Positions 9,221 to 59,095 of a stretch of 64,000 bases of DNA are shown piece after piece. The position numbers were made by a program, and so were the translations under genes. The number at the start of each line of letters is the position of its first letter. Within the stretch, counting starts at the first letter, position 1. Under the pieces are notes generated by a model. It was not told the DNA's origin. It saw only the letters and a list, made by a program, of their open reading frames with translations, and did no database searches. This stretch comes from an uncultured Bacteroidales bacterium (GTDB lineage: Bacteria > Bacteroidota > Bacteroidia > Bacteroidales > UBA3663), in contig CAJOLH010000026.1 of NCBI GenBank assembly GCA_905235375.1, positions 1 to 64,000 on the forward strand, given 5' to 3'.

Positions 9221-10027
9221 ATGAAACAAGCTGTTCTATCACTTCTCGCTGTCATCATGGTGACGGTGATGCTATGCGGATGTCATAGCAGGGAGAAGAT
9301 TGTTTATGTGCAGGGAGCTGATGCGGTCGGTTCCTTCCAGAACCCGACACCCTACGAGGCCCGCATAGCCAAGGATAACCAACTGTCCATACTGGTGACC
9401 TGCAGCGACCTGCTGTTGGCCGTGCCTTTCAATCTTCAACGTCCTCAGGCTTCGATGCAGGAGGGCGGCGGCAGCTATAGCACCAACATCAACGACAACG
9501 ATAACCTCTATTATCGCGTAGATTCGAATGGCGACATCCTCTTCCCGACCATCGGCAAGTTGCACGTCGAGGGCATGACGCGCGGAGAACTCTCGGACTA
9601 CCTGACCAATTACCTGAGCTCGAAAGGCTACATCAGCGACCCGATTGTCAATGTCTCTTTCACGGGGGCACACTATTCGGTGATAGGAGAGGTGAACAGT
9701 CCCGGCATGATTCCGATGACGCAGGATCGTGTCACCCTCTTCGAGGCGTTGGCGTCGGCGCACGACATGACCATCTTCGGCGAACGTGACAAGGTGCAGC
9801 TGATACGCGAGGAGAATGGCACACAGAAGGTGATACGTCTCAATCTTAAGGATCCGCAGATCATCTCCAGTCCCTATTATTTCGTGAAGAACGGCGACGT
9901 GCTTTATGTGGAGCCAAGCGGTACCCGTGCGGCTAACCGTGAGGTCTCGAATCTTTCGACGTTCGCCATTTCCATCACTTCCATCCTCATCACCATCGCC
10001 AGCCTGATCATTACGGTGACGAAGTAA
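9221..10027 (+). CDS. Polysaccharide biosynthesis/export outer-membrane lipoprotein (Wza-like)
   Basis: 268 residues. The start at 9221 gives a lipoprotein signal with lipobox MLCGC; the frame upstream runs into the promoter. A Poly_export-type domain follows (FPTIGKLHVEGMTRGELSDYL), then an SLBB-like segment (SVIGEVNSPGMIPM...TLFEAL), and a C-terminal hydrophobic helix (about 246-265), the pattern of Wza-family proteins. Wza forms the outer-membrane pore for capsule or exopolysaccharide. No Wzc-like kinase or glycosyltransferase is adjacent, so the partner machinery must be elsewhere. Confidence 0.88.
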   Translation: MKQAVLSLLAVIMVTVMLCGCHSREKIVYVQGADAVGSFQNPTPYEARIAKDNQLSILVTCSDLLLAVPFNLQRPQASMQEGGGSYSTNINDNDNLYYRVDSNGDILFPTIGKLHVEGMTRGELSDYLTNYLSSKGYISDPIVNVSFTGAHYSVIGEVNSPGMIPMTQDRVTLFEALASAHDMTIFGERDKVQLIREENGTQKVIRLNLKDPQIISSPYYFVKNGDVLYVEPSGTRAANREVSNLSTFAISITSILITIASLIITVTK

Positions 10028-10079
10028 CCCCTTGAACCCCTCGAACCCCTCGAACCCCTCGAACCCCTCGAACCCCTCG
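10026..10079. repeat. 9-bp tandem repeat AACCCCTCG, six units
   Basis: Six head-to-tail copies (the first with one mismatch) fill almost the whole gap between the export lipoprotein gene and ychF. The same word or close variants occur at 7464-7472, about 34560-34610 and 40219-40280. Confidence 0.9.
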
Positions 10080-10101
10080 AACCTTTTTAACCCCAAATAT
10101 A

Positions 10102-12001: not shown

Positions 12002-15000
12002 ATGAAACGACTGTTCCTTTTGGATGCCTACGCGCTGATATTTCGCGCGTATTACGGATTCATCAACAAGCCGCTTGTGAACAGCAAGGGGCAGGTCACA
12101 TCCGCCATCTATGGATTCACCAAGACCCTGCAGGACGTGTTGGGAGGCCAGAAGATGCCCGATGCCAATCCCGCATGGCTCGATGAGTCGGGACTCCTTC
12201 GCCCCGACTGCATAGCCGTGTGCTTCGACCCCAAAGGGGGCACGTTCCGCCATAAGCAGTTCCCCTCCTACAAGGCGCAGCGCCAAGCCACACCCGAGGA
12301 CATCACCTCCGCCGTGCCGTGGATCAAGAAGATCATCGAAGCCTATCGCATCCCCATCATCGAAGTGCCTAACTACGAAGCCGACGATGTGGTGGGCACC
12401 ATGTCGCGCCTCGCCGATGAGAGCGGACAGTTCGAGACGTTCCTGATGAGTCCCGACAAGGATTATGCCCAGCTCGTCACCGACCATAGCGTCATCTTCA
12501 AGCCGAAATCCTTTGGCCCCGGGTATGAGATTCTCGATCGGGAGGCAGTGCTCAAGAAATATGGCCTGAAGCGAACCTCGCAGGTCATCGACATGCTTGG
12601 TCTTCAAGGTGACTCGGCTGACAACATCCCGGGCTGTCCGGGCGTCGGACCGAAGACCGCGCAGAAGCTTATCGAGGACTTCGATAGCGTGGAGAATATG
12701 ATTGCTGCTGTAGAGGCAGCCGTCGCCGAAGGCAAGAAGGAGCTTCCCAACCTTAAAAAGGGTATGTTTGCCAAGGTGGCAGAGAATGTTCAGCAGATCA
12801 AGGATTCGAAATACCTTGCTACCATCTGCCTTGACGTGCCGGGCACCGTGCTTGATGCCGAAGCACTCAAGGTGGAGACACCCGACTATGCCAAGCTTGC
12901 CGAGATCTTTGGCGAACTCGAATTTCGCAAGATGCGTGAAGAAGTCCAGGCAAAGATAAGCAATACTTCCCTTCTTGCAGGACAGTCCGCACTCGTCACT
13001 ACGGCTGCACAGGGAACTGCCCTCGCTGCCTCCGTTGGTCCATCCGCGTCCTCGTCTCAGCCAAGTTTGGCTGAGGAAAATGATGCAGACAACCGCCCCT
13101 CTCCGACGGTTCCCGATGGAGTACCCGCCGCGCCCCAATCCTTACAGACCATTCGCGACATCAAGACCGACTACATCATCGCCGATACGCCTGATAAGCG
13201 ACAGGACCTGGTGTCAGAGCTTTTCTGGACCGCAGAATGGGCGTTCGACACCGAGACGACCAGCTTGAATATCATCGATGCAGAGCTTGTGGGCATATCG
13301 TTCGCCGTAGCCGACCACAAGGCATGGTATGTGCCCATCCCTGCCGATCAGGTCGCGGCGAAAGCCATCGTGGAGGAACTCCGCCCCATCTTCGAGAACG
13401 ATGCGGCACTCAAGATTGCGCAGAATGCGAAGTATGACTATTCCATCCTGAAGCGTTTTGGCGTGGAGGTGGCTTATCCACTCTTCGACACGATGATAGC
13501 ACACTATCTGCTCGAACCTGAGCAGCCTCACAACATGGACTATCTGTCGGAGGTCTATCTGGGCTACACCCCCATACCGACCAGTGCGCTCATCGACACC
13601 GGCAAAAAGAAGAAGGCAGCTGAGGCCAACCTCGACCTCTTCGCCATGATGGATGCCGCCGATGACGAAGACAGACCGAAAACCATGCGCGACTGTCCGG
13701 TGGCGCAGGTGGCAGAATATTGTTGCGAAGATAGCGACGTGACCTATCAGCTTGCGCAGAAGTTGCGTCCGATGTTGAAGAACGAAAACCTGCTCAGGCT
13801 CTTCACCGAGATTGAAATGCCGCTTGTGCGTGTGCTGGCAGATATGGAACTCACGGGTGTGCGTATAGATGTCAGCGCACTCACCGAGTCGAAGGAAATC
13901 CTGGAGGAGGAGCAGAAGCGTCTGGAGCAACGACTGGGAGAGATTGCAGGTCATCCATTCAATCCGCTTTCACCCAAGGTCGTGGCACAGGTGATTTTCG
14001 ATGAATTGCGTCTCGACCCGAAATCGAAGAACCGCAGCACTGCCGAAGATGTGCTCGTGCAACTCAAGGGCAGGATTGACAATCCGTTGCATCTCGAACT
14101 TATCGACGGCATACTGAGTTATCGTGGCAACAAGAAGCTGCTGGGCACCTACATCGAGGCATTGCCCCAGGAGATCAATCCCCGTACACATCGCATCCAT
14201 TGCCAGTTCAATCAGGCGGTCACCGCCACGGGCCGACTTTCGAGCAGCAATCCCAACCTGCAGAATATCCCGATTCGCGATGCCGTAGGCCGTGAGCTGC
14301 GCAAGGCTTTCGTGCCCGACGAGGGCGAGGTCTTCTTCAGCGCCGACTATAGCCAGATCGAGCTTCGGCTTATGGCTCATCTGAGCCAGGATCCGAACAT
14401 GGTGGAGGCATTCCTTGAGGGCGACGACATTCACCGTGCCACCGCAGCCAAGATCTATCATGTGCCCCTCGACGAGGTGACAAAAATCGAACGTACCAAG
14501 GCCAAGACAGCCAATTTCGGAATCATCTATGGAATCTCGACCTTCGGACTGGCTTCACGTCTGAACATCCCGCGTGGCGAAGCCAAGCAACTCATCGATG
14601 GATACTTCTCCACCTATCCGCGCATTCGCGAATATATGGACGAAAGCATCCGCATAGCTCGTGACAAGGGATATGTGGAGACCCTGTTCGGACGGCGTCG
14701 TATGCTCAAGGACATCCACTCGGCCAATGCCACCGTGCGCGGTTATGCCGAGCGAAACGCCATCAATGCGCCCATCCAGGGCACGGCTGCCGACATCATC
14801 AAGATTGCCATGGTGCGCATCTGGGAACGTATTCGGCGCGAGAAGCTTCATGCCAAGCTGTTGATCCAGGTACACGACGAATTGAATTTCTCCGTGCCTC
14901 CACAGGAATTGGAACGCCTGAAGGCCGTGGTGCTCGAAGAGATGTCGGGTGTTGTCAAACTCTCCGTCCCGCTCATCGCTGATTGTGGCACCGGCCCCAA

Positions 15001-15019
15001 CTGGCTTGCTGCCCATTGA
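12002..15019 (+). CDS. polA: DNA polymerase I
   Basis: 1005 residues, somewhat longer than E. coli Pol I (928). The N-terminal 5' nuclease domain includes EADDVVGT, SPDKDYAQLV and GDSADNIPGCPGVGPKTA. A low-complexity Ala/Ser/Pro linker sits near residues 325-380. The 3'-5' exonuclease domain appears intact (FDTETT; YCCEDSDVTY). Polymerase motifs are DYSQIELRLMAHLSQD (A), RTKAKTANFGIIYG (B) and QVHDELNF (C). It fills gaps and removes RNA primers in replication and repair. Its leader is occupied by a repeat element, and the next gene begins 3 bp after its stop. Confidence 0.97.
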   Translation: MKRLFLLDAYALIFRAYYGFINKPLVNSKGQVTSAIYGFTKTLQDVLGGQKMPDANPAWLDESGLLRPDCIAVCFDPKGGTFRHKQFPSYKAQRQATPEDITSAVPWIKKIIEAYRIPIIEVPNYEADDVVGTMSRLADESGQFETFLMSPDKDYAQLVTDHSVIFKPKSFGPGYEILDREAVLKKYGLKRTSQVIDMLGLQGDSADNIPGCPGVGPKTAQKLIEDFDSVENMIAAVEAAVAEGKKELPNLKKGMFAKVAENVQQIKDSKYLATICLDVPGTVLDAEALKVETPDYAKLAEIFGELEFRKMREEVQAKISNTSLLAGQSALVTTAAQGTALAASVGPSASSSQPSLAEENDADNRPSPTVPDGVPAAPQSLQTIRDIKTDYIIADTPDKRQDLVSELFWTAEWAFDTETTSLNIIDAELVGISFAVADHKAWYVPIPADQVAAKAIVEELRPIFENDAALKIAQNAKYDYSILKRFGVEVAYPLFDTMIAHYLLEPEQPHNMDYLSEVYLGYTPIPTSALIDTGKKKKAAEANLDLFAMMDAADDEDRPKTMRDCPVAQVAEYCCEDSDVTYQLAQKLRPMLKNENLLRLFTEIEMPLVRVLADMELTGVRIDVSALTESKEILEEEQKRLEQRLGEIAGHPFNPLSPKVVAQVIFDELRLDPKSKNRSTAEDVLVQLKGRIDNPLHLELIDGILSYRGNKKLLGTYIEALPQEINPRTHRIHCQFNQAVTATGRLSSSNPNLQNIPIRDAVGRELRKAFVPDEGEVFFSADYSQIELRLMAHLSQDPNMVEAFLEGDDIHRATAAKIYHVPLDEVTKIERTKAKTANFGIIYGISTFGLASRLNIPRGEAKQLIDGYFSTYPRIREYMDESIRIARDKGYVETLFGRRRMLKDIHSANATVRGYAERNAINAPIQGTAADIIKIAMVRIWERIRREKLHAKLLIQVHDELNFSVPPQELERLKAVVLEEMSGVVKLSVPLIADCGTGPNWLAAH

Positions 15020-15022
15020 TCT

Positions 15023-15868
15023 ATGCTTTGCGACAAGATTCTGGAAGACCGCGATTTCGGCCATCTCTACATCATCGTCAATCGGCGCGCCGTGCGTTAT
15101 ACTTTCCGCCCTGCCAATGATGGCACGCCAACGGTCGGTATCCGTGTAACGGTTCCGCCTCATTATGACGTGAAGGATGTGCTACGTGCGGTCGAGACGA
15201 ATCGCCCTCAGCTGCTTTCGATGCTGCAGGTTAGTCAGACGGCCAAAGACAAGAAAAAGCCGTCGTTGCGTATCGACTGGGATTTTCGCATCGAAACCGA
15301 TTGCCTAATTGTTTCGTTGGTCAAAGGCGTGGGTACAAAGTTTATGCTGCATCGTCTGCCGGCTCAAATCGCGAAGGATGCACAGGGCGAGGACATCATT
15401 GTGAAGCCTGCCGTGCTGGAGATACATTGTCCACCCGATTGCGACTTTGAAAAGGATGGAATGCAGGCATTTCTCGAACGTGCGATAGTCGAAGGCATCC
15501 GCAATCATGCCAAGGCGCAGTTGCTTCCGCGTTTGCTCGGGTATGCCAAGCGCTATGGCATTCAGCTGAACGTGGTGAAGGTGAATAGCAGCAAGGGAAG
15601 ATGGGGAAGTTGTTCCCAGCACAAGCAGAGAACTCTTCTCAATAACAAGAAGTGCTTCAACATCAATCTTTCGCTCTTCACGTTGCTCTTGCCCATGCGT
15701 CTGCAGAAGCTGATACTCCTTCATGAGCTCACTCACACAATCTACATGGATCACAGTCCCGCTTTTCATGCGCACCTTAATGCTTGGCTCGGAGGAAAGG
15801 AGGCTGCGCTCGAAAAGGAACTGAAGAATTACAATACTTCGATATTTCCGTTCGTCAAAAAAGAATAA
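15023..15868 (+). CDS. YgjP-like (DUF45) zinc metallopeptidase-domain protein
   Basis: 281 residues. The C-terminal part has the HExxH motif in LLHELTHTIYMDHSPAFHAHL, with a further downstream histidine, preceded by SSKGRWGSCSQHKQRTLLN, which is characteristic of the YgjP/WLM-like family. The start ATG at 15023 is nearly contiguous with polA, so it is probably co-transcribed. Substrate and role are not established for this family. A terminator follows directly. Confidence 0.85.
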   Translation: MLCDKILEDRDFGHLYIIVNRRAVRYTFRPANDGTPTVGIRVTVPPHYDVKDVLRAVETNRPQLLSMLQVSQTAKDKKKPSLRIDWDFRIETDCLIVSLVKGVGTKFMLHRLPAQIAKDAQGEDIIVKPAVLEIHCPPDCDFEKDGMQAFLERAIVEGIRNHAKAQLLPRLLGYAKRYGIQLNVVKVNSSKGRWGSCSQHKQRTLLNNKKCFNINLSLFTLLLPMRLQKLILLHELTHTIYMDHSPAFHAHLNAWLGGKEAALEKELKNYNTSIFPFVKKE

Positions 15869-15880
15869 ATTGCATAAAAG

Positions 15881-15912
15881 AATACACCCCGAAACAGGAT
15901 GTATTTTTTTTT
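15881..15912 (+). terminator. Rho-independent terminator after the polA operon
   Basis: AATACA...TGTATT stem followed by a run of nine or more T. Confidence 0.7.
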
Positions 15913-15920
15913 ATTGCCTC

Positions 15921-16340
15921 GGTCCAATTCGCTAAAGTAAATTGGACTCATCCGATAGTGTTGGTCCAATTCGCTAAAGTAAATTGGACTCATCCAATTG
16001 TGTTGGTCCAATTCCCTAAAGTAAATTGGACCCATCCAATCGCGTCGGTCCAATTCGCTGAAGTAAATTGGACTCATCCAAACGTGCCGGTCCAATTCGC
16101 TAAAGTAAATTGGCCCCATCCAATCGCGTCAGTCCAATTCGCTGAAGTAAAATGGACCCATCCAATCGTGTCGGTCCAATTCGCTAAAGTAAATTGGACT
16201 CATCCGATCGTGCCGGTCCAATTCTCTAAAGTAAATTGGACTCATCCAATCGTGTCAGTCCAATTCTCTAAAGTAAAATGGACTCATCCAATCGTGTCAG
16301 TCCAATTCACTAAAGTAAAATGGACCCATCCAAACGCGGC
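15921..16340. repeat. Array 1: ten tandem 42-bp units, each with a 26-nt hairpin
   Basis: Units start at 15921, 15963, 16005, 16047, 16089, 16131, 16173, 16215, 16257 and 16299 with no gaps. Each contains GTCCAATT, 10 nt, AATTGGAC, then a 16-nt spacer. The 5' arm is the same in all ten; the 3' arm varies in four (AATTGGCC once, AAATGGAC three times). The array starts 8 bp after a terminator and ends at another hairpin. A reading frame crosses it only because 42 is divisible by 3. Function unknown. The rest of 15869-16523 holds the two terminator-like hairpins and a promoter. Confidence 0.95.
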
Positions 16341-16373
16341 ATGACCAATCTTCGCCAAGATCGGTCATGCCGC
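16336..16373. other. Long hairpin at the end of array 1
   Basis: An 11-bp perfect stem (GCGGCATGACC / GGTCATGCCGC) encloses an inner ATCTT/AAGAT stem, separated by one mismatch. There is no T run, so it is not a standard terminator. Confidence 0.7.
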
Positions 16374-36535: not shown

Positions 36536-36607
36536 TTAACTTTTATCACCATCTTAACTTTTATCACCATCTTAACTTTTATCACCATCTTAACTTTTAT
36601 CACCATC
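36536..36607. repeat. 18-bp tandem repeat TTAACTTTTATCACCATC, four units
   Basis: Four perfect head-to-tail copies end 5 bp before the GH105 start codon, so they occupy its leader and ribosome-binding region. Confidence 0.95.
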
Positions 36608-52926: not shown

Positions 52927-54393
52927 TCATCTGATACCATGCTTCCGTTCGTACTCCGTGGCAGCGAGGATAAACGCACCATAGACCTTGCCCTCGGTGT
53001 AGTCCGTGATGCGTGTCACGTCGTTGCCCAGCAGGTAGTATGCAGCCGAGCCGTCGCGCACACCCCAGCTGGCACCACCCAGACCTGCCGAAGCGCAGTC
53101 GTCAATCAGCGTCCATGTGCCGTTGTCTTCACGCACGCGGAGGAACTGCTTCACCACGCCCTTCATGGCCACCTCGGCATTGTTCTCGTACTTCTCCTTC
53201 GGGAGCAACCCTAAGCGGATTCCCTTCAGCAGTGTGGCCGTGAAGATGCACGAAGCCGACGACTCCAGATAGTTCGAAACCGGCTCGTAGGTCTTCCCCT
53301 GATATTCGCTCACCGTGAACGAACCGTCGTGGGCGAGCAGCTGGTACCAGCAGCCCGTCTCCTTGTCCTGGCGGCGCACCAGTCCTTCGGCGAGGGTGTT
53401 CAGGTAGTAGAGCAATCGTTCGCGGCAGTCAGAGCTAAGGCCGCGCAGGGTGCTTTGAGTGGGTTTCAATGTGATGCCTTCGGGGATGAACTCCAGTACA
53501 TCCACCAGGGCGAGGAAATACCAGCCGCAGGCGCGACCCCAGTATTCCTGCGAGCGACCCGTCTTGGGGTCGGCCCAGAGGCGAGCCTTTTCGCCCTTGG
53601 GGTCGGCGCTGAAGGCGTGCCACAGCAGCTGTTCCTTGGGGTCCCACAGCTTGTGCCAGGTGATGTCGAACTGTCGGGTGATGGTTTTCCAGTCCTCCTC
53701 CGCGCCGTCGATGGTGTAGCCGTAGTGGATCATCTGGGCGAGCAGGGCAGGCCCCATATATTGGCCGTCGCACCACATCTGGTTCGGATAGACCTCCTTG
53801 TGCCACCATCCTCCTGCGCACTCCTTGCTCAGCGATGCGGGGATGCTGTAGTGCTCCTTCACGTCTTTCAGTCCCTGGATGGCGCGTTCCATCGCCATCT
53901 TGGCGTTGGCGTGGGTTTCGGGTTTGGCGATGTCACGGAATGCGCCCGTTTCGGGGTCGGTGAGGTCGTATAGGGCGAAGTACATCTTCGTGGCGTTGAG
54001 GTCGTCGAGGCTGCGGCCGGTGGTGGGTACGCTTTGGGCACAGCGGTTGGCATAGTCCTCCACGCTGTAGAACCAGCTCTTGGCAAATCCGGAGTTCGAG
54101 TTGGCTTGGGCAGCCTCGATGATGGCCTTAGCCACGAGACCAGGCACGTAGTCGAATTTCAGGTTGTCGCCGCCCTGGTTGGGTGTCATCACCGCACCCT
54201 GCAGGTTGTAGAGGTTCAGACCCATGAGCTTCTTGTTGGCGTAGAAGTCGGCGATGCGGTATTGGATGATGGGGATGAGGAGGTGATCGCCGGGTTGCCA
54301 TCCTTCGAGTGGGTGGAGTTGCGCACAAGCACATGAGGGCATGAGTGATGCGATGCCGATGGCAAGTGTCCTGATCAGTTGTTTCGCTTTCAT
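52927..54393 (-). CDS. GH105 glycoside hydrolase, second copy
   Basis: 488 residues with a signal peptide (cleaved near CACAQ; the SCACA region makes a lipoprotein signal possible). GH105 blocks: GGWWHKEVYPNQMWCDGQYM (catalytic Asp near 220) and YWGRACGWYFLALVDVLEFIP, then CASAGLGGASWGVRDGSAAYYL near the end. Probably an unsaturated glucuronyl/galacturonyl hydrolase. It shares the fold with the GH105 at 36613 but differs in sequence, so a distinct substrate is likely. Confidence 0.88.
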   Translation of the reverse strand: MKAKQLIRTLAIGIASLMPSCACAQLHPLEGWQPGDHLLIPIIQYRIADFYANKKLMGLNLYNLQGAVMTPNQGGDNLKFDYVPGLVAKAIIEAAQANSNSGFAKSWFYSVEDYANRCAQSVPTTGRSLDDLNATKMYFALYDLTDPETGAFRDIAKPETHANAKMAMERAIQGLKDVKEHYSIPASLSKECAGGWWHKEVYPNQMWCDGQYMGPALLAQMIHYGYTIDGAEEDWKTITRQFDITWHKLWDPKEQLLWHAFSADPKGEKARLWADPKTGRSQEYWGRACGWYFLALVDVLEFIPEGITLKPTQSTLRGLSSDCRERLLYYLNTLAEGLVRRQDKETGCWYQLLAHDGSFTVSEYQGKTYEPVSNYLESSASCIFTATLLKGIRLGLLPKEKYENNAEVAMKGVVKQFLRVREDNGTWTLIDDCASAGLGGASWGVRDGSAAYYLLGNDVTRITDYTEGKVYGAFILAATEYERKHGIR

Positions 54394-54719: not shown

Positions 54720-55219
54720 CAAGCACTCTCTCGCGCGACAGCGTGCTTTATCCCGCGTCATCAAGCACTCTGTCGCGCATCAGCGTGCTTTATCCCGCAT
54801 CATCAAGCATTCTGTCGCGCGTCAGCGTGCTCTATTCGGCAGCATCAAGCATTCTGTCGCGCGTCAAAGTGCTCTATTCCGCATCATCAAGCACTCTGTT
54901 GCGCGTCAAAGTGCTCTATTCTGTATCATCAAGCACTCTGTTGCGCGTCAAAGTGCTCTATTCCGCATCATCAAGCACTCTGTTGCGCGTCAAAGTGCTC
55001 TATTCCGCATCATCAAGCACTCTGTTGCGCGTCAAAGTGCTCTATTCTGTATCATCAAGCATTCTGTTGCGCGTCAAAGTGCTCTATCCTGCATCATCAA
55101 GCACTCTGTCGCGCGTCAAAGTGCTCTATTCTGTATCATCAAGCATTCTGTCGCGCGTCAAAGTGCTCTATTCCACATCATGAAGCATTCTGTCGCGCGT
55201 CAAGATGCTTTATCACATT
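54720..55219. repeat. Array 2: twelve tandem 42-bp units, each with a 26-28 nt hairpin
   Basis: Units start every 42 bp from 54720 (54762, 54804, ... 55182); the last is partial. Most carry AGCAYT, 14 nt, AGTGCT, then a 16-nt spacer ending ATCATCA. Outer arms covary: AAGCAC/GTGCTT in units 1-2, AAGCAT/ATGCTT in unit 12, with T-G wobble between. The sequence is unrelated to array 1 but has the same period, hairpin length and spacer length. The frame across it is not coding. The remaining 55220-55319 contains further GTCGC words but no gene. Confidence 0.95.
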
Positions 55220-55319
55220 ATTTTTGCTCTTCGACGCGACAGATTTTGCAGGGGTTAGCCTGTTTTGTCGCTATTTAGTGGTTGTGTCGCTATGTCCCCA
55301 TCAAATAATGAGAAAATAG

Positions 55320-55351
55320 TTTGCAGGCCTGCGAAATTCACCCTATCTTTG
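55320..55351 (+). promoter_or_regulatory. Promoter of candidate small RNA 2
   Basis: TTTG (55320-55323), exactly 20 nt, TATCTTTG (55344-55351). A terminator hairpin follows within 90 nt. Confidence 0.65.
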
Positions 55352-55356
55352 CACTG

Positions 55357-55449
55357 TCAAAAAAAATAATTCATAAGAAGGTTTGGTTTTAGTTAATAAT
55401 ATGTGTGTGTGGAGCACTTCGGTATTCGCCGGAGTGCTTTATTGTTGTT
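55357..55449 (+). ncRNA. Candidate small RNA 2 (about 90 nt)
   Basis: It ends in a hairpin with arms AGCACT and AGTGCT 14 nt apart (55413-55438), followed by a modest T-rich tail. The arms and spacing equal those of array 2 units, which lie about 190 bp upstream. It shares AAGGTTT...GTTAATA with candidate 1. No convincing reading frame is seen, and bamD has its own promoter downstream. Confidence 0.55.
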
Positions 55450-55576: not shown

Positions 55577-56395
55577 ATGAGAATCAAGCATATCGTTTTA
55601 TATCTGAGTTTCAGTATGGTTGCGCTCTGTTCGTGCGGGGAATACAACAGATTGCTGAAGAGCAATGACCCTGACGAGAAATACGACTATGCCAAGGTCT
55701 ATTATGAGCAGGGGAAATATTCCAAGGCTGCAACATTGCTGACAGATGTAGTTCCGATTTACCGAGGCACAGAAGATGCCGAGAATGCGCTTTGGCTACT
55801 GGCAATGAGCTATTTCAAGCAGAAGGATTATCTTTCAGCTGGTGAGTATTTCGTTCGTTATGCCAACAACTATCCAAGGGGAGAGCATGCAATGGAGTCC
55901 CGCTTCAATGTGGCATACGGTGACTATAAGGATTCGCCCGATGCCCGCTTGGATCAGGAGATCACCCGCCGAGCCGTCAAGGAGATTGATTCGTTTGTCG
56001 ATGTCTATCCTCACAGTTCTCTCGCCGATAGTGCTGCCATCATGCGCTTGGAACTGACCGATAAACTCTGCTACAAGGAGTATTTGAGTGCAAAACTCTA
56101 TCTGAACCTTGGAAGCTATATGGGCAACAACTACGAGTCGGCGGTTATCACTGCACGTAACGCCCAGAATGAGTATCCCTACAGCAAGTATCGTGAGGAT
56201 TTGGCCTACATCATCTTCCGTGCGCGTTATGAGGCTGCCATGAATTCGGTTGACGAAAAGGCTGAGGACCGTCTGCGTGAAGCTTCGGACGAGTACTACA
56301 CTTTCATTAACGATTATCCTGAAGGCAAATACTCGAAAGAGGTGAACAAGCTGAACGAGCGAATCCAGAAGAAGCTTGCGGCTTACATCGATTGA
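55577..56395 (+). CDS. bamD: Outer membrane assembly lipoprotein BamD
   Basis: 272 residues from ATG 55577, with lipobox ALCSC near residue 18 after a short hydrophobic signal. TPR-like repeats typical of BamD/YfiO: YYEQGKYSKAATLLTDVVPIYRGTEDAENALW (in parts), SYFKQKDYLSAGEYFVRYAN and YPYSKYREDLAYIIFRARYE. BamD is the essential lipoprotein of the beta-barrel assembly complex. Bacteroidetes versions sit upstream of the omega-like rpoZ gene and DUF4293, as here. Confidence 0.92.
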   Translation: MRIKHIVLYLSFSMVALCSCGEYNRLLKSNDPDEKYDYAKVYYEQGKYSKAATLLTDVVPIYRGTEDAENALWLLAMSYFKQKDYLSAGEYFVRYANNYPRGEHAMESRFNVAYGDYKDSPDARLDQEITRRAVKEIDSFVDVYPHSSLADSAAIMRLELTDKLCYKEYLSAKLYLNLGSYMGNNYESAVITARNAQNEYPYSKYREDLAYIIFRARYEAAMNSVDEKAEDRLREASDEYYTFINDYPEGKYSKEVNKLNERIQKKLAAYID

Positions 56396-57414: not shown

Positions 57415-57454
57415 ATAGCCCTCGAAACCGTCAAGGTTTCGGGGGCTATTTTTA
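57415..57454 (+). terminator. Terminator after DUF4293
   Basis: ATAGCCCTCGAAACC pairs with GGTTTCGGGGGCTAT (one G-T pair), then T5. Confidence 0.9.
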
Positions 57455-57510
57455 TCACGATGATATATTCTTTATCACGATGATATATTCTTTATCACGA
57501 TGATATATTC
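57451..57510. repeat. 20-bp tandem repeat TTTATCACGATGATATATTC, three units plus a partial
   Basis: Three exact copies are followed by a degraded fourth (to about 57530), then AATTCTCAAATTC-type words to 57600. Confidence 0.92.
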
Positions 57511-57604
57511 TTCATCACGAATTATCGAATTATAGAATTGAGTGACGAATTAAGAGGGACACATAAATAATTCTCAAATTCTCAAATTCGTGATAAAAAG
57601 AAAT

Positions 57605-58892: not shown

Positions 58893-59095
58893 GTTAGGGA
58901 TATTAGGGGATATTAAGGGATTTTTAGGGATATTAAGGGACGTTACCTTTGTGTCGAAGGGATATTAAGGGAATGTTAGGGATATTAAGGGATATTAAGG
59001 GACGTTACTGTTGCTTATCGAAAATTGGGCCAAAGGAACAATTGTCCCTTATAATCCCTTCGAATCCCTAAAATCCCTTAATATCCCTTAGAATC
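58893..59095. repeat. Large degenerate inverted repeat of GATATTAAGGG words
   Basis: About nine GGGATATTAAGG-type words run on the left (58893-59010), and their complement (CCCTTAATATCCC-type) fills the right (59041-59095). Together they could form a long imperfect hairpin filling the gap between oadB and the dehydrogenase gene. Confidence 0.85.

Follow-up and report, generated by a model that had tools for sequence, protein, structure and literature searches.

The locus and its two arrays

The window, that is the whole stretch of 64,000 nucleotides of uncultured Bacteroidales DNA analysed here, contains two tandem arrays. Array 2 occupies positions 54720-55223 (forward strand), in a divergent gap between a GH88-family gene on its left (52927-54393, reverse strand), whose 5' end is 327 bp away, and a bamD/YfiO-like lipoprotein gene on its right (55577-56395, forward strand), and is thus more than 300 bp from each gene start. 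It consists of twelve head-to-tail 42-bp units of a family called F1, each composed of AAGCAYTCTGTCGCGCGTCARAGTGCTY and the linker TATTCCGCATCATC; the linker of the last unit has diverged. TRF places the array at 54720-55203 (period 42, 11.5 copies, 92% matches), and this result and a reading of the units together bear out the twelve units of period 42 that a sequence-only reading had described. The hairpin AGCACT-14-AGTGCT (26 nt) and 16-nt spacer given in that reading are also correct for array 2; depending on the cut, the unit is a quasi-palindrome of 26-28 bp and a linker of 14-16 bp (28 + 14 or 26 + 16). Using the 28 + 14 cut, the first major dyad, AAGCACTCTCTCGCGCGACAGCGTGCTT, lies at 54721-54748 and recurs at 42-bp steps; the first linker, TATCCCGCGTCATC, lies at 54749-54762 (14 bp), and its midpoint falls at the half-period (~21 bp), which is a weak dyad axis throughout the family. 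Upstream of bamD (55320-55442) the sequence still has a promoter of the Bacteroidales type, TTTG-N20-TATCTTTG, as well as a terminator hairpin; the 31-aa ORF that lies between promoter and terminator in the related genome G003 is gone, apparently through a small deletion.

Array 1 (15919-16338, forward strand) contains ten 42-bp units of a second family, F2, with the form GTCCAATT-N10-AATTGGAC plus the linker TCATCCAATCGTGTCG, and ends in a lone F6-type palindrome (GCATGACCAATCTTCGCCAAGATCGGTCATGCC; 16339-16371, forward strand). It follows a gene pair consisting of polA and a ygjP-like metallopeptidase (12002-15868, forward strand), and a hairpin resembling an intrinsic terminator (ATACACCCCGAAACAGGATGTATTTTTTTTT; 15882-15913, forward strand) can be read in the sequence between the pair and the array. 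The palindromes of the two arrays are unrelated; the same 26/16 cut fits both, as had been claimed.

An F2-containing array, with 3-10 F2 units, is found 3' of polA-ygjP in 6/6 genomes of the clade; in genomes besides this one the orthologous array likewise ends in an F6-type unit, and at most of these loci a terminator precedes the array. Within the F2 arrays at this position (search tolerating one mismatch per arm; spacing reveals no skipped units in those arrays that are purely F2), the arms are near-invariant at 1.9-2.0 bits, compared with 1.3 bits for the centre and 1.1 bits for the linker, which has the conserved core TCCAATCG. The ygjP-like gene was considered as a 'transposase' of F2 and rejected, because vertical inheritance of polA, ygjP and array explains their linkage and other F2 arrays have different neighbours. 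One genome (G006; L243, L248) has two diverged polA-ygjP copies, each with a 3' F2 array, possibly reflecting a strain mixture in the MAG.

A dispersed class of 42-bp arrays

A BLAST search of its own genome with array 2 gives 71 matches, representing about 30 F1 arrays, and array 1 has four to five F2 relatives there; pooled with a TRF scan, these amount to at least 45 intergenic tandem arrays. The scan (period of at least 25, at least 3 copies) covered samples of genomes. In 837 kb of the own genome it found 27 longer-period arrays, of which 17 have a period of 42 and two a period of 84, a fraction that is not fully unbiased because some of the scanned stretches were picked for their BLAST hits; the arrays at other periods are chiefly LRR-type coding repeats and short satellites. 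Both of these kinds occur in the window: leucine-rich (BspA-like) type coding repeats of 69 bp, which congeners also have, lie at 567-1536, and short satellites, not of the 42-bp kind, lie at 10026-10083, 36536-36607, 57447-57520 and 58896-59095, with periods of 9, 18, 20 and 10 bp, respectively. In G003, 18/20 arrays have a period of 41-42 (in stretches partly picked on hits). The congeners G012 (5/5 arrays at 41-42) and G005 (2/5 at 41) retain the period and not the 26/16 cut, short stretches sampled from another four congeners, 223 kb in total, contain no 41-42-bp arrays, and a control scan of 309 kb of DNA from elsewhere in the order, outside this family, gives none. The suggestion that two unrelated arrays of one geometry are more than a coincidence is therefore supported by the number of array 2 matches and by the dominance of period 42, and the broad spread of periods that had been named as the argument against it is not seen; so narrow a distribution makes a mechanism shared by the arrays likely.

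F1 arrays were seen only in six closely related rumen Bacteroidales genomes, among which BamD identity is 94-96%; the BamD proteins of congeners without F1 are 66-70% identical. Neither F1 nor F2 was found outside the genus among ~790 other Bacteroidia (two samples), and in a collection of 84,980 species F1 occurs only in this rumen MAG group and on one contig filed as Pseudobutyrivibrio. The latter (L063) has an F1 array and LRR repeats and is probably a mis-binned Bacteroidales contig. A viral origin of F1 was rejected, since IMG/VR has no F1, as were protein-coding repeats, since 41-bp linker variants shift the frame and the arrays sit in intergenic gaps. All genomes compared are incomplete MAGs, and the arrays themselves probably break assembly, because the ends of a number of contigs of the own genome fall within arrays (C19 and C36, at L022 and L023, and also C14 and C52).

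Unrelated palindromes on one helical grid

This geometry is common to at least eight palindrome families (F1-F8) of unrelated sequence. An array has about ten dyads, and in mixed arrays F1 and F6, or F2 and F3, alternate in register with a super-period of 84 bp. Within 2 bp, 341 of 358 spacings between dyad centres are a multiple of 20.85 bp; the best quantum is 20.83 bp, with a mean resultant of 0.94. This quantum equals 2 x 10.42 bp, or two turns of B-DNA, and the 41- and 42-bp variants, which differ in linker length, average 41.5-41.7 bp, or four turns. The linker midpoint behaves as a weak dyad axis, with a complementarity of 0.40 versus ~0.24 at neighbouring offsets (823 linkers), although the values for F3 and F5 are inflated because their palindromes extend into the linker. 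Linkers are also related across families through a common TCCRATYGGA-like core. Since many unrelated palindromes hold one spacing, it is the geometry and not the sequence that seems to be conserved, and the fact that such palindromes keep to a single helical grid at no fewer than 45 loci indicates that selection or copying acts on geometry instead of sequence.

A neutral explanation would have a single ancestral 42-bp minisatellite scattered through the genome and drifting, leaving the period and the palindromes as relics. The relatedness of linkers across families agrees with such descent, as does the greater similarity of units within arrays (0.85) than between arrays (0.78). However, drift should break both phase and dyad symmetry, yet the spacings remain on the grid; in addition, the arms are kept while the centres change, and a single grid accommodates unrelated palindromes. 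We consider this explanation very unlikely.

Placement at the ends of genes

Arrays occupy convergent gaps more often than expected (35/82, versus 63/446 control gaps; P = 3e-8, an optimistic value because G003 stretches are represented twice at a few loci and orthologous loci do not count as independent). Gene ends within 120 bp of an array are 3' ends in 40 cases and 5' ends in 3. Thus the arrays avoid promoters and are concentrated at the 3' ends of genes and at convergent junctions. With respect to the 3' end of the neighbouring gene, F1 lies in either orientation (left/right, 19 versus 21), and its orientation relative to replication, judged by GC3 skew with the arrays masked, is not significant (31/77). 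No flanking gene is common to the arrays; their neighbours are all different.

A probable constraint on DNA rather than on a fold

A position close to the 3' ends of genes, together with the ability of single units to fold, would suit arrays of RNA hairpins transcribed within 3' UTRs, serving in termination, in mRNA protection or as a protein sponge. The predicted folds of array 2 units are moderate to weak (z of -0.8 to -1.6), and array 1 has a z of -3.7. The sequence-only reading had gone further, proposing that the outer arms of array 2 change in a paired way and that the fold is kept by these changes. The paired changes fail on testing, and the idea of a fold kept by them is not supported. 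At pair 6-23, array 2 has C-G seven times, T-G four times and T-A once, and consequently only one double change among its twelve units. Across the F1 family (638 units from 77 arrays, of which 461 are distinct), the arm pairs of the distinct units show no excess of Watson-Crick combinations over random re-pairing, and two pairs fall significantly below it (6-23, 177 versus 233; 7-22, 302 versus 323). G-T/T-G and A-C/C-A mismatches are about equally frequent in the arms; there is therefore no strand-specific wobble, and neither strand resembles an RNA stem. The dyads are also imperfect, with a T-T mismatch fixed at 11-18 and position 8-21 mostly unpaired.

The sole pair of F1 positions that covaries is formed by the axis bases, 14 and 15, which are CG or GC and are Watson-Crick in 49 of 58 array consensuses, compared with 29 expected. 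Adjacent bases at the axis cannot pair in a hairpin, but such symmetry is expected for a symmetric DNA site. Because the arm pairs lack covariation and only these unpairable bases covary, the constraint looks to be at the level of DNA. Other features also speak against RNA hairpin arrays: the strand of the array is independent of the adjoining gene, a terminator already lies ahead of the array at several loci, and an Rfam search of the window matched no known RNA family. Taken together, the evidence favours a phased lattice of DNA dyads over an RNA or hairpin fold, and we regard a function as transcribed hairpins as very unlikely.

Lability and the question of origin

Away from the polA-ygjP locus the arrays are labile. 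Two orthologous arrays (L058 and L048) differ in length by exactly one 42-bp unit, and at 3/4 orthologous sites compared the array is absent from at least some close relatives. At the L009 gene, relatives have no array. At the bamD site the F1 array is inverted between the own genome (G000) and G003, where the array is upstream of bamD, and the 3' end of a thiF-like gene is followed by F1 in G000 and by an F7-type array in G003, with no array there in G011.

These differences, together with dispersal, lineage specificity, intergenic location and avoidance of promoters, are compatible with selfish, non-autonomous elements resembling BIMEs, in which a putative enzyme (an HUH transposase, a recombinase or another) would recognise palindromes and copy or amplify them in 42-bp steps, so that the period would be the ruler of the enzyme and there would be no role for the host. 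BIMEs that combine REPs of two types are known (PMC2817692). Against this, F1 dyads are nearly confined to arrays (60 inside, 4 outside), unlike the singlets and dimers of REPs, and the arrays 3' of polA-ygjP are kept in every clade genome. Furthermore, the RAYT domain Y1_Tnp (PF01797) is missing from the array-rich G000, G003, G004 and G006 (incomplete MAGs, 77-90%), yet it is present in several array-poor congeners, as well as in the array-bearing G007 and G011; a RAYT/Y1 transposase was thus rejected as the mover of the arrays, its presence being uncorrelated with theirs. A selfish origin is the main rival to the reading as protein-binding sites developed below and, although we judge it somewhat unlikely as the explanation, it may be true in addition. 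It accounts for dispersal, but by itself would not account for unrelated dyads on one grid unless the enzyme imposes the grid.

Rows of putative dimer sites

The constant phase, the interchangeability of the palindromes, the symmetry at the axis, the indifference to strand and the placement at 3' ends are best fitted by rows of sites for dimeric proteins; their role and the protein partner are our inference. Array 2 is one of a clade-specific set of intergenic phased dyad arrays, and we think it about an even chance that these are sites of dimeric proteins and DNA-level elements akin in role to BIMEs. Each dyad would be a site for a dimeric DNA-binding protein, or for one of several paralogous proteins, one per palindrome family. 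If so, the dimers bound to an array would be lined up along a single face of the helix, and the array may act between transcription units as a nucleoid or topological element in a manner similar to BIMEs. Growth, shrinkage and mosaicism of the arrays could proceed by in-register recombination or slippage at the common linkers, and new arrays would arise at the 3' ends of genes by some further process. Several observations count against phased sites: most arrays do not keep their position among relatives, a behaviour that suits mobile or selfish DNA as well as it suits functional sites, the F1 dyads are imperfect, and the arrays of G005 and G012 lack the 26/16 cut.

A bolder form of the binding-site reading, which we regard as unlikely, is that the arrays constitute an undescribed chromosomal element, in which dyad lattices that are degenerate in sequence and constrained in geometry to a 20.8-bp grid are bound by a predicted family of dimeric proteins with differing sequence preferences, co-polymerising at the ends of transcription units. 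The partner, if found, would define either a new nucleoid/topology system of rumen Bacteroidales that are still uncultured or an enzyme of amplification whose built-in ruler measures 42 bp.

Relation to known repeats

A literature search found no account of such arrays. The closest comparison is with REP/BIME-2 elements, which are intergenic palindromes and linker motifs in mosaic arrays, number tens to hundreds per genome and include hybrid palindrome types; BIME-2 has been reported to bind DNA gyrase (PMC2817692). Binding of gyrase, IHF or Pol I is a further characteristic of REP/BIME elements. The arrays described here are likewise intergenic, lie 3' of genes and occur in many copies. However, they are head-to-tail, whereas REP/BIME units alternate in orientation as head-to-head or tail-to-tail dimers, and they differ further in the fixed 41-42-bp grid common to unrelated palindromes and in having almost no single copies. 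REPs are defined by a GTAG or CGTC tag (PMC3733652), and no constant tag was seen by eye in the F1-F8 consensus units and their flanks. Because tag, orientation and transposase all differ from those of REP/BIMEs, the phased palindrome arrays are filed as a variant near this group and outside it.

In Porphyromonas gingivalis, also a member of the Bacteroidales, the BrickBuilt MITE/minisatellite forms dispersed intergenic tandem arrays of a short unit whose number varies among strains, and tandem repeats of 41, 23 and 22 nt are mentioned for strain W83 (PMC4596501). BrickBuilt, however, has one 23-nt unit without spacers, flanked by a leader, a tail and terminal inverted repeats, and a family of unrelated palindromes on a common grid is not described there (PMC4596501); by eye, the flanks of 20 F1 arrays have no constant sequence in common, which does not fit a conserved leader and tail with terminal inverted repeats. 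The dRS3/NIME clusters of Neisseria (CGTC-1 REPs) also interleave palindromic repeats with other repeat families in intergenic DNA, but these are tagged REPs, and we found no account of constant helical phasing (PMC3733652). Finally, the arrays have the regular repeat-spacer appearance of CRISPR arrays, from which they differ in that their linkers are not unique, recurring within and between arrays, and in their unit of ~42 bp. A CRISPR array (repeat ACTTCGAGACCATCATCCATTACAACAAGGATTAAGAC) does occur at L011, positions 900-2714, where it ends ~165 bp from an F1 array.
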